From: Bacteroidaceae bacterium
Lineage (GTDB): Bacteria > Bacteroidota > Bacteroidia > Bacteroidales > Bacteroidaceae
Reading direction: 5' to 3'
NCBI GenBank assembly: GCA_024401215.1
Contig: JAKSLL010000028.1
Span: 1-39,409 of the forward strand
DNA: 39,409 nt
Shown here: piece after piece, positions 9,400 to 39,409 of the stretch
Numbering within the stretch: position 1 is the first letter of the stretch
Layout of the letters: each line of letters opens with the position of its first letter
Program-made: the position numbers and the translations under genes
The notes under the pieces: generated by a model
What the model was told of the DNA's origin: nothing
Database searches by the model: none
Seen by the model: only the letters and a program-made list of their open reading frames with translations

Positions 9400-9429
9400 A
9401 GGGGTGTTATATATAAGCGCAAGATCTAC

Positions 9430-9509
9430 TTGTTGTGGTGTAAAAGGGTAGTTGAAAGGAAGTTAAAGGGCAGTTAAAGTGACAAATGTCTGTATATGGC
9501 AAGTGTCAA
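9430..9509 (+). repeat. 3'-end repeat element, copy A (four 11-bp units plus conserved tail)
   Basis: Starting at TTGTTGTGGTG there are four units like AGTTAAAGGGT, then a tail that begins GACAAATGTCTGTATATGGC and ends AAGTGTC. The same order occurs at 35199-35277 and 38958-39037 on the other strand. This copy lies 30 bp after the TolC-family stop and in its direction. Its end supplies the TGA stop (9506-9508) of the convergent DUF418 gene. Confidence 0.75.
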
Positions 9510-10687
9510 TTTACGGTAGTAGATATTATCCTTCCATAAGTCAACTTTCGCCAAATCCATTCAAAGGGTCCATATTGAAAGAACCTAAGCCAAATTGCGG
9601 AGAAAATCATTTCAGCAGCAAACACAGCAAGAGAGATTGCTTCCGTCTGCCATAATCCGAAAGATAATCCCCAACCAAGGCCTATCCCATAGAAAAGGAA
9701 TATGCCAATGATGCTCTGTGACAAGTAGCATGTGAGTGACATGCGTCCAGGGAAAGATAGGCATTTCCATATTTTCGACTTTGGGGTTTTCACAAATATA
9801 AGAGAAAAGAATGCCATATAAGCAATGCCCAATGGATAAACGCTTAATGTATAAAGTATAGAGTGGGGGATAGCTCCCATAGGTTGGCTAAATGCGTATG
9901 CAACAGAAAGGGGAAGTCCAATGGCAAATCCCCATGCTGCCACCTTGCGGAACATCTGCTTGTGCTGTTCTATAGAAGTGAGGCATTTGCTTTTGCCAAT
10001 AGCATAGCCTATGAGGAAAAGGCCAAGCACCTTGAAGTATCTATGTGAACTGACAAACTCCCACATTCTCTCCCATGCTCCTTGCATTAAGAAGGCATGA
10101 ACTCCCTCATAGCTTTCTGTATCACGCAACCATGTGGCAAAGTTATTTTCTGTGATACCATAAGATGCTGCTGTCTGCCACCACATATTATAAGGATATA
10201 CGGATGGGTCGATGAGTGTAATGGTTATCACAAGATCGCAAATAACCGGCAAAAACAGGAATATTGATGCAGCAATAAGGAGTGAACGTATATTAAGTTT
10301 GCTGAACAATGGCAATATCATTCCCATCAAAGCGTATAGTAAAAGAATGTCTCCACTCCAAAGGAACAGCAAATGCAGGAGTCCGATAAGAGTGAGCACT
10401 CCCATACGTCGGTAAAACACAACAAAGCCATTACGACCTTTACGCATACAGTTTTCTATAATAATGGAAAAGCCTATGCCAAAAAGGATGGAAAAGATAG
10501 TGTAGAATTTTCCGTCAACAAAAATAATCTGCAACCATCTGGTGATCATGTCAGCGTCTGCAGTCAACATGCTGCTTTGCTCCTCGCCAGAAAGGAAGGA
10601 ATAAAGCGAGAATTCAGGATAATTAGCAAGCGCAATACCCATTAAGGCAAACCCACGCAATGCGTCTAATAATATTAGTCGTTTCAT
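9506..10687 (-). CDS. DUF418 (YeiB-like) polytopic membrane protein
   Basis: A 393-residue integral membrane protein. It opens MKRLILLDALRGFALMGIA, the typical N-terminal signature of the DUF418/YeiB group (related to acyltransferase-3-like membrane proteins), and has about nine to ten hydrophobic segments. The C-terminal half contains MSLTCYLSQSIIGIFLFYGIG and ends in the FQYGPFEWIWRKLTYG motif common in DUF418 proteins. No transport substrate or enzyme activity is established. It is a single gene, convergent with the efflux operon. A TGTAACC/GGTTACA dyad sits 14 bp upstream of its start. Confidence 0.85.
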   Translation of the reverse strand: MKRLILLDALRGFALMGIALANYPEFSLYSFLSGEEQSSMLTADADMITRWLQIIFVDGKFYTIFSILFGIGFSIIIENCMRKGRNGFVVFYRRMGVLTLIGLLHLLFLWSGDILLLYALMGMILPLFSKLNIRSLLIAASIFLFLPVICDLVITITLIDPSVYPYNMWWQTAASYGITENNFATWLRDTESYEGVHAFLMQGAWERMWEFVSSHRYFKVLGLFLIGYAIGKSKCLTSIEQHKQMFRKVAAWGFAIGLPLSVAYAFSQPMGAIPHSILYTLSVYPLGIAYMAFFSLIFVKTPKSKIWKCLSFPGRMSLTCYLSQSIIGIFLFYGIGLGWGLSFGLWQTEAISLAVFAAEMIFSAIWLRFFQYGPFEWIWRKLTYGRIISTTVN

Positions 10688-34944: not shown

Positions 34945-35198
34945 TAATCAAGTATCTGTTCGATATTGTTTTCGTATTTATCAAGAATCCGGAGAATCTC
35001 GAAGAGTTCGGTGTGGTCGAATTTGAGATGTTTTCTGTTTGCAGCAAACAGTTTCTAACGGAAATTTCTTGATTGGCGATTGGGGCGGATTTGTGTTTTT
35101 GTTTACACTTTAATTCGACTTTCTCAAGTTTGCAACTTGCTCGTTTTGGGGAGTAAAAGTGGAGTTAAAGAGGAGTTATCGCTTCGCTCGGAGTTAAA

Positions 35199-35277
35199 GA
35201 GACGTTTGCCTTGTCTGACATTTGTCACTTTGATTACCCTTTAACTTCTCTTTAACTACCCTTTAATTTCACAACAA
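35199..35277 (-). repeat. 3'-end repeat element, copy B (extended palindromic surroundings)
   Basis: Read on the minus strand: TTGTTGTGAAA, four 11-bp units like AGTTAAAGGGT, then GACAAATGTC and GGCAAACGTC. It is 44 bp after the serA terminator. Unlike the other copies it is followed by CTTTAACTCC-type units in opposite orientation (35150-35195), and it is flanked by short dyads (ACAAGT/ACTTGT; CAAGTT/AACTTG), so the whole 35101-35310 region can fold. Confidence 0.7.
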
Positions 35278-35320
35278 GTGGAGCGAAACTTGTACACTTT
35301 AATTGTATAGGTTGAAAAAG

Positions 35321-35355
35321 AAAGCGCACTAACCATTGAATGACCAGTGCGCTTT
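35321..35355 (-). terminator. Terminator of serA
   Basis: AAAGCGCACT (35321-35330) pairs with AGTGCGCTTT (35346-35355), loop 15 nt. It stands 27 bp after the minus-strand stop at 35382, with A/T runs at both sides. Confidence 0.8.
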
Positions 35356-35381: not shown

Positions 35382-36302
35382 TTATTTGTTAACCTGGAAC
35401 TTAGTGATTCCTTCCTTGATGAATCCTACAATCTGATTTGCAGCTGCAAGACCAGCGTTTGTATTTGCTTCAGCTGTCTGAGCACCCATCTTCTTTGGAG
35501 TTGAGAAGTAGCGACCTTCAAACTTAGCGAACTCAGCATCAGCATCTGGCTTGATGTCTGTGATGTACTTGAGGTCAGTACGCTCAGCCATGAGTTCGAT
35601 GAGACCAGCCTCGTCGATAACCTCCTTACGAGCTGTGTTGATAAGGATTGCACCCTTCTTCATTGTAGAGCAGAGAGCCTTGTTGATAGACTGCTTTGTC
35701 TCTGCTGTTGCAGGGATGTGGAGAGATACGATGTCAGCCTCCTTGAAGAGGTCTGCCTGTGATGCCATAGCCTGAACACCTGCAGCTTCTATAGCCTCTG
35801 CTGGGCAGAATGCATCGTATGCGCAAACTTCCATGCCGAAGCCTTTAGCGATACGAGCAACATTGCGACCTACATTACCGAATGCGAGGATACCAAGCTT
35901 CTTGCCCATAAGTTCTGAACCTGCCTTGCCGTTGTAGAAGTTACGAACTGTGAAAACAAGAAGACCGAGAACGAGCTCAGCAACAGCGTTAGCGTTCTGA
36001 CCTGGAGTGTTCATAACAACAACCTTGCGTGCTGTAGCAGCCTCAAGGTCAACATTGTCGAAACCAGCACCAGCGCGAACAACAATCTTAAGGTTCTTAG
36101 CAGCATCCATCACCTCAGCGTCGATTTTGTCTGAACGGATGATGATAGCGTCAACATCAGCTACTGCTTCAAGAAGCTGTGCCTTTTCTGTATATTTCTC
36201 AAGAAGAGCAAGTTCGAAACCTGCACCTTCGATAATTTCCTTTATGCCAGCAACAGCAGGAGCAGCAAATGGCTTTTCTGTTGCAATAAGTACTTTTGCC
36301 AT
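35382..36302 (-). CDS. serA: D-3-phosphoglycerate dehydrogenase, short form with Lys active site
   Basis: A 306-residue D-2-hydroxyacid dehydrogenase that oxidises 3-phosphoglycerate to 3-phosphohydroxypyruvate with NAD, the first step of serine synthesis. The NAD-binding Rossmann core is LGILAFGNVGRNVARIAKGF (136-155). The catalytic arginine is R225 (LINTARKEVID). The usual active-site histidine (TPHxGA) is missing; the sequence is STPKKMGAQTAEAN (K270/K271), a form known from Bacteroidales and Entamoeba. There is no C-terminal ACT domain, so feedback inhibition by serine as in E. coli SerA is not expected. It follows serC by 83 bp and ends at a strong terminator. Confidence 0.92.
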   Translation of the reverse strand: MAKVLIATEKPFAAPAVAGIKEIIEGAGFELALLEKYTEKAQLLEAVADVDAIIIRSDKIDAEVMDAAKNLKIVVRAGAGFDNVDLEAATARKVVVMNTPGQNANAVAELVLGLLVFTVRNFYNGKAGSELMGKKLGILAFGNVGRNVARIAKGFGMEVCAYDAFCPAEAIEAAGVQAMASQADLFKEADIVSLHIPATAETKQSINKALCSTMKKGAILINTARKEVIDEAGLIELMAERTDLKYITDIKPDADAEFAKFEGRYFSTPKKMGAQTAEANTNAGLAAANQIVGFIKEGITKFQVNK

Positions 36303-38957: not shown

Positions 38958-39037
38958 TGGACGTTTGCCATATACAGACATCCGTCCCTTTAACTACCCT
39001 TTAACTCCTCTTTAACTACCCTTTAACTCCACAATAT
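38958..39037 (-). repeat. 3'-end repeat element, copy C
   Basis: Read on the minus strand: ATATTGTGGAG, four units (AGTTAAAGGGT, AGTTAAAGAGG, AGTTAAAGGGT, AGTTAAAGGG), then ATGTCTGTATATGGCAAACG. It starts 8 bp after the stop of the nuclease-domain gene, in that gene's direction. It is the most regular of the three copies. Confidence 0.78.
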
Positions 39038-39044
39038 GTAAAAT

Positions 39045-39409
39045 CTATACTATCGCCTCTATCAACGTGCGCCCATTAAGCTCTACTGGCGGCAGCAAAC
39101 CTGACTGCTTTTCCTTATTGAAGCAGAAGCTTACCATGTAGCCGGTTTGCAGATTGTACCGTTCGAGATATTCTGCAAGCTGTTTCTCTCCACGTTCATT
39201 ATATGACTGTCCTCGCCAAATCTTCAGCTCCACAATATACTGCTGACCGAGATAATCTATGATGATGTCGGTACGGGTGAGGTCGCGTGTCTGGGCTTCG
39301 CAGTAGTAATTGCCTATGCCGTTGATGATTGGGCGCAGGTAAGTGAGGAAAATTTTTCTGCCGTTGTCCTCGACAAACTGATCATCATGTCCGGGGCGAT
39401 AGATTTCGT
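39045..39409 (-). CDS. PD-(D/E)XK nuclease-domain protein, C-terminal part (cut by window edge)
   Basis: The frame enters at the window edge (first full codon GAA) and runs 120 codons to TAG at 39045-39047. The visible part has the PD-(D/E)XK core: an upstream glutamate region (NYYCEAQTRDLTRTD), D in RTDIIIDYLG, and E-x-K in QYIVELKIWRG, followed by QLAEYLERYNLQTGYMVSF. In Bacteroidales this C-terminal domain usually follows an AAA-ATPase-like domain in a group of about 500-600 residues, so the missing N-terminal part is probably an ATPase. It may be active or a remnant; this cannot be judged from the piece. Its role (defence, mobile element or regulation) is unknown. Confidence 0.75.
   Translation of the reverse strand, partial: EIYRPGHDDQFVEDNGRKIFLTYLRPIINGIGNYYCEAQTRDLTRTDIIIDYLGQQYIVELKIWRGQSYNERGEKQLAEYLERYNLQTGYMVSFCFNKEKQSGLLPPVELNGRTLIEAIV

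Follow-up and report, generated by a model that had tools for sequence, protein, structure and literature searches.

A probable MITE with ISPepr1-like ends and foldback-like tandem-repeat arms in a Bacteroidaceae genome

The repeat that occurs three times in the window (the whole 39,409-nucleotide stretch of DNA analysed here, contig C156 of a 4.35-Mb Bacteroidaceae draft genome of 234 contigs and 93.55% completeness) is most probably a MITE, a non-autonomous DNA transposon of ISPepr1-like IS4 elements carrying foldback-like arms; we put the probability of this reading at about nine in ten. Three features read from the sequences lead to it: conserved ends, target-site duplications and an insertion sequence (IS) with matching ends. 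The repeat displays the features of a MITE, namely inverted ends, a target-site duplication, short length, no transposase gene, many intergenic copies and IS-like ends. An earlier note on this DNA had offered, as one of two readings, a mobile element with target preference, and it is this alternative that is favored by the ends, by the 7-8-bp duplications, which mostly have A and T as neighbouring bases, and by the matching IS.

The element in the window and in its host genome

The three copies lie where the earlier note had placed them, and in numbers well beyond chance: when up to 3 mismatches are allowed, the 19-mer AGTTAAAGGGTAGTTAAAG matches the window nine times versus 0.02 expected from shuffled sequences, and the copies also surface as direct and inverted repeats. 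The 80-bp unit defined in that note is real, but constitutes only the left half (left arm and central module) of a larger element. In copy 2, that half is followed by a complementary right arm and a second end, and the whole is flanked by a duplication of TTAAAGTG. This complete, 181-bp copy, TACAAGTTTCGC...AAAGTCGAA, spans 35114..35294 on the minus strand, as defined by a profile match (positions 1-179 of 179 at 35115-35293, score 196) and by reading of its ends; one outer base was added per side, in agreement with the boundaries of the autonomous IS. The TTAAAGTG duplications occupy 35295..35302 upstream and 35106..35113 downstream, both on the minus strand. Still on the minus strand, the left arm (35225..35268) comprises four 11-bp units, AATTAAAGGGT, AGTTAAAGAGA, AGTTAAAGGGT and AATCAAAGTGA, followed by the central module GACAAATGTC..GGCAAACGTC (35201..35226), the "conserved tail" of the earlier note, whose outer bases GAC/GTC pair in the predicted fold to give a central hairpin. 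In the right arm (35150..35200), which is predicted to pair with the left arm, the units are inverted (CTTTAACTCC) and accompanied by the module GAGCGAAGCGATAACTCC. The complementarity of the arms alone reaches 31, versus a shuffle maximum of 23. No open reading frame (ORF) of 80 aa or more crosses 35114-35294, and Rfam returned no match above gathering score in the window.

Copies 1 and 3 are right-truncated relics consisting of the left arm and the central module. Copy 1 (9423..9509, plus strand) matches the profile from 9423, over positions 10-140 of 179, and by eye has no right arm after its central module. A stem is predicted between TGACA (9480-9484) and TGTCA (9504-9508), and the copy lies between converging ORFs, its tail reaching the end of the opposite ORF 9506-10687 (minus strand). 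Copy 3 (38959..39039, minus strand; profile positions 15-94 of 179) has a predicted stem between GGACG (38987-38983) and CGTCC (38963-38959); the ORF on its 5' side, 39045-39407 (minus strand), is cut by the contig end. The right arm of both relics was presumably lost by decay. The number of 11-bp units differs among copies, in steps of 11 bp.

At the genome scale, the core AGTTAAAGKGACRAATGTC, with up to 3 mismatches, gave 191 matches versus 8 for a reversed-pattern control. Since the core half-repeats on the opposite strand, places are counted twice and the 191 matches are not 191 elements: in the fetched host DNA, 127 core matches correspond to 108 places, 19 being matched on both strands. 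The number of core places in the genome is therefore between 108 and 172. The survey set comprised 84 host stretches around sites and the window (85 sources), in which the 127 raw core matches yielded 118 distinct contexts, 110 with enough flank. Among these 110 extracted copies, the left end was recognized in 59, the right end in 62 and both in 40, and many copies continue through the inverted-unit right arm to the second end AAAGTTGAA. The usual ends, TACAAGTTTCGC and TTCAACTTTCGC, are terminal inverted repeats alike at 10 of 12 positions, and those of copy 2, TACAAGTTTCGC and TTCGACTTTCTC, at 8 of 12. A profile built on 37 copies (the 40 both-ended ones minus 3 of odd length) detected 114 places in the 85 sources, including 7 without a core match; by local match, 46 showed both ends, 23 the left only, 21 the right only and 24 neither, some of the single- or no-end places being intact and trimmed by the local alignment or a contig end. 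Full copies are 127 to 206 bp long, most commonly 179, and several are near-identical (97-99% like the reference copy). Host contigs C2, C43, C53, C98, C162, C190 and C199 end inside an element copy, indicating that the repeat breaks the assembly and that copies were probably missed.

Target-site duplications were sought with the boundaries fixed so that the element runs from TACAAG to GTTGAA. Of the 40 both-ended copies, 23 lie between perfect duplications that measure exactly 7 bp in 14 cases and 8 bp in 9; duplications of 7 bp or more were found in 7 of 1560 mispaired-flank controls. The remaining 17 copies, a point against the MITE reading, comprise one with a 6-bp duplication, one with 4 bp and 15 with none, a few right ends among these 17 having probably been mis-picked by the search. 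The duplications sit in AT-rich sites, with A as the base preceding them in 16/23 cases and T as the base following them in 21/23. In the mechanism that we propose, an ISPepr1-like transposase would act in trans on the MITE ends, and the element would be cut out and pasted into new A(TWANNNA)T-like sites.

Position and orientation relative to genes

With gene positions taken from a simple, purpose-made gene caller, none of the 114 places lies inside a called gene; 11 extend into the end of one, the overlap being 55 bp at most. Sixty are in tandem gaps, 22 in convergent and 14 in divergent ones, and 18 are without a neighbour; the excess of convergent over divergent gaps has p=0.0004 against gap length and p=0.06 against gap number. 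In tandem gaps, 47 copies follow the direction of the genes and 13 oppose it (p=1.2e-5), a bias also found in high-scoring copies alone (27:9), and the stop codon is no more than 26 bp from the element in half of the 74 upstream genes sharing its orientation. We treat the orientation bias as real in the host genome, and not as proof of a 3'-end function.

The earlier note had placed every copy directly behind a gene and in the direction of that gene. This holds in the window in that the copies are located 24, 89 and 6 bp 3' of an ORF, but copy 1 also meets an opposite ORF, and the rule fails in many genome copies: of 96 copies for which both neighbours were called, 14 are in divergent gaps and 13 run opposite to the two neighbouring genes, 27 in all. 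Random orientation across the genome was named there as the outcome that would defeat a 3'-end function; the orientation is not random (47 versus 13), so that this check does not overturn the idea outright.

Several origins of the bias were considered and rejected. Target sequence does not account for it, as 93 element-free tandem gaps contain 87 sense and 89 antisense strong sites. Nor does the direction of nearby genes, taken as a proxy for that of replication: copies in convergent and divergent gaps follow the majority of non-adjacent genes in 15/34 cases, and all copies in 52/92. Predicted RNA stability is no better a candidate, the sense strand being the weaker in 20/40 host copies and 14/23 relatives. 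Finally, the bias is not stronger in tight gaps, those with at most 60 bp between element and gene on either side, which contain 26 of the 60 tandem copies. Among relatives, orientation defined by the ends is the reverse of that in the host genome (6 same, 17 opposite, p=0.035), and orientation defined by the GCGAAGCGATAAC module is 8:4 in two overlapping sets.

These data bear on the possibility that the MITE was later recruited, copies being kept near stop codons in the one orientation in which read-through is useful or least harmful. Such a scenario would accommodate a bias explained neither by target sequence nor by the direction of non-adjacent genes, as well as the retention of the left arm and central module in both truncated window copies. 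We nevertheless consider it unlikely, albeit a serious contender, as the bias is already present in high-scoring copies, shows no dependence on tight gaps, and changes sign in relatives when defined by the ends, with the module giving only 8:4.

A candidate autonomous partner

In one related stretch (L206), the end sequence adjoins a 45-codon open stretch. The corresponding 45-aa piece matches 14 of the 301 family genomes, among them the end of a full IS (L243); it has no match in plasmids, and matched one phage record. The L243 IS, with ends at 1477 and 3063, is 1587 bp long and carries a 483-aa ORF that matches, above cut-off, NCBIfam NF049925 (IS4_4, "IS4 family transposase", E 2.1e-115) and Pfam DDE_5 (6.1e-12). 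The IS of phage PP511379.1, Dulem virus 40 (L257 1069-2654, equivalent to PP511379.1 19819-21404), is 1586 bp long, with ends TTTAAGTTTCGCAAG, a 7-bp duplication, TGATTAA, and an open 483-aa transposase 52% identical to that of L243. This phage protein, XCD03599.1, is annotated as an endonuclease. A same-genus copy (L258) measures 1594 bp; its frames are broken, each of its ends carries 3 mismatches, and its duplication, TTAAGAAAA, is 9 bp long. A Segatella hominis plasmid carries a 42%-identical relative, with similar ends and no clear duplication. The copies L244 (broken) and L268 are 1487 bp and 1601 bp long, the latter with CTAAAGTTTCGCA; no clear duplication was found at L243, L244 or L268.

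The YREK residues Y361, R364, E368 and K375 are invariant in three transposases, with a spacing that fits YREK; D136 and D250 may be the catalytic aspartates. The ISPepr1 subgroup of IS4 is characterized, in the available part of its description, by lengths of 1500-1600 bp, ends YT-AA-YTT---A and duplications of 7-8 bp (PMC2266710). The partner IS, 1586-1594 bp in three copies, with ends TTTAAGTTTCGCA (L257) that fit YT-AA-YTT---A and a complete YREK, is consistent with this subgroup, an assignment made from size, ends and YREK; the MITE shares the 7-8-bp duplications. By contrast with subgroup members, the window element has no transposase, and its left end starts with TA instead of TT. IS-like ends are common to the MITE and to L243, L257 and L258, that is, to relatives and phage, but the TA of the host left end, where the IS and most listed relatives have TT, counts against the MITE reading.

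Within the genus, transposase matches were found in 5/45 genomes. It also counts against the MITE reading that no transposase copy was detected in the host, three IS4_4 matches being far below cut-off, although the assembly is a draft of 234 contigs and 93.55% completeness. The fetched host DNA contained no convincing IS-sized pair of ends. The facing ends C112:56006 and 58337 were rejected as an IS, as they belong to two small elements. Mobilization by a transposase other than the ISPepr1-like IS would fit a host genome without a copy of that IS and with 5 PF01609 matches, 4 of them over cut-off. This appears very improbable to us: the MITE ends and duplication length agree with the ISPepr1-like IS, whereas no pair of matching ends was found in the fetched flanks of the five PF01609 matches, which were rejected as the autonomous IS, and a single match of 11 bases, in L096, faces away from the gene.

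Separately, the plasmid records L269 (NZ_OY725798.1), OY726057.1 and NZ_OY725886.1, 1664-1665 bp long, encode an ISBf8-type transposase. The one that was inspected is circular with one annotated gene; these may be IS circles or assembly artefacts.

Predicted folds, and relatives with other arms

For copy 2, predicted RNA folds as good as that of the element were obtained with 7/200 shuffles on the gene-sense strand and 1/200 on the other, and for copies 1 and 3 with 52/200 and 14/200 shuffles, respectively. An intrinsic terminator was rejected, given the tight-gap copies and the lack of a T-run behind the element, whose right end is GTTGAA followed by the target site. A terminator-like hairpin with a T-run (AAAGCGCACT..AGTGCGCTTTCTTTTT), read by eye, is located outside the element at 35316..35355 (minus strand), between ORF 35382-36302 and copy 2.

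The other reading of the earlier note was a 3'-end function. In its full form, a host 3'-end element (terminator, mRNA stabilizer or processing site) placed after genes, it draws on the 47 of 60 tandem copies running with the genes, on the proximity of the upstream stop codons and on the convergent excess. We regard it as very improbable. Besides the missing T-run, a terminator-like hairpin already lies upstream of copy 2, predicted folds are only modestly better than shuffles, and fold energy favors neither strand relative to the genes. Moreover, a terminator would be expected to cause harm in tight gaps, where 26/60 tandem copies are found, 27/96 copies are divergent or antisense, and the bias is reversed in relatives (6 versus 17 by ends). 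The proposal that 11-bp units, close to one helical turn, phase A-tracts and bend DNA fares no better, because unit length is not conserved: relatives have periods of 7, 8, 9 and other lengths behind similar ends.

Returning to the MITE reading, the element matches 30/45 genomes of the genus, host included (E 0.001 or better). A related-core scan gave 33 stretches, 30 of which come from records of Prevotellaceae, Bacteroidaceae or Bacteroidales, rumen being a frequent source, and the others from one Flavobacteriales, one Staphylococcus and one Paenibacillus record. The end pattern TTYAAGTTTCGCAAGCTCAACTT, with 2 mismatches, was found in 45/301 family genomes and 12/30 genera, versus 0 for the control, although not all of these matches are MITEs. 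In the loci inspected, the arms behind such ends have units of 11 bp (AGTTAAAGGG), 9 bp (GAGTTAAAG), 8 bp (GGAGTTCA) and 7 bp (GGGGCAA/AAGGAGC and GAAGAGT, GTTGACA), among others. A list chosen for ends and duplication contains 29 elements (28 relatives and 1 host element, two being near-identical in two genomes) and, owing to this selection, provides no rate. Nine elements were picked by hand and their ends removed. In 7 of them, copy 2 included, the left and right arms are more complementary than in any of 300 shuffles; L220 is equalled or surpassed by at least one shuffle, and L183 has no such complementarity. The foldback layout, inverted arms of tandem sub-repeats, was found in 7/9 hand-picked elements.

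Other arrangements were noted in the same stretches. Tiny elements of roughly 32-75 bp have the same ends with little between (L134, L136, L137 at 1605-1637, L025, L037 and L059), ATAATAAA being present by eye on both sides of L137. L173 has similar ends, the duplication TAAGCGAG and a body without evident tandem units. Another dispersed repeat, GCACTACAGCCTCGTAGA(A/G)GCGGTCAGTAACC, lies near end-like sequences in L014 (about 1914) and L029 (about 677), and a further one, with several CATTCACG-like units, beside element copies in L032 (about 1309-1500) and L079 (about 6900).

Because other repeats replace the tandem-unit arms while the ends stay, the arms are probably dispensable for recognition. 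They may change by slippage, and by one arm serving as template for the other across the hairpin. Amplification of a local minisatellite, with no transposition involved, would explain the variation of unit number in 11-bp steps, but is refuted by the duplications and by dispersed copies with common ends, and its probability is negligible. We tentatively propose, at a little under even odds, that these elements represent a family-wide class of bacterial foldback transposons, in which ISPepr1-type ends would capture new tandem repeats and make complementary arms, the ends being kept and the body replaced, with an orientation rule relative to transcription in one lineage and the arms made and homogenized by template switching across the palindrome.

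Comparison with known systems relied on the available parts of the published descriptions. BrickBuilt of Porphyromonas gingivalis, present in 19 copies, is likewise an intergenic Bacteroidales MITE with tandem repeats and predicted long stem-loops, but is described with 23-nt units, unlike leader and tail, and IS5-type ends, GAGACC.., where the window element has 11-bp units in complementary arms and IS4-type ACAAGTTTCGC ends (PMC4596501). PINSR of Prevotella intermedia, compared by description only, is also an intergenic repeat of high copy number (188 bp, 177 and 184 copies in two strains), which its authors report to have no terminal inverted repeats and not to be a MITE (PMC4755523). The BOX element of Streptococcus pneumoniae, a composite boxA-boxB(n)-boxC, resembles ours by description in its modularity, variable tandem middle module, predicted stem-loop and ends proposed to match an IS; in the part of the source available, no statement was found of the boxB array pairing with an inverted array (PMC3049150). 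Foldback (FB) transposons such as Tm1 share terminal inverted repeats of variable-number tandem sub-repeats and a long target duplication, most often 9 bp, but are eukaryotic with a MULE-type transposase, and the likeness implies no common descent (PMC3169594). MITEs as a kind are already known. In our literature search we came across no account of this element, of ISPepr1-type MITEs, or of conserved IS ends joined to exchangeable tandem-repeat arms.

These results carry a warning, in that orientation or position beside stop codons does not by itself show a 3'-end function. They assign an end structure and a likely mobilizing transposase to a repeat that is abundant in uncultured Bacteroidales, many of which, judging by record titles, come from rumen samples. 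The natural series of kept ends and changing arms makes the origin and upkeep of foldback arm complementarity testable in bacteria.
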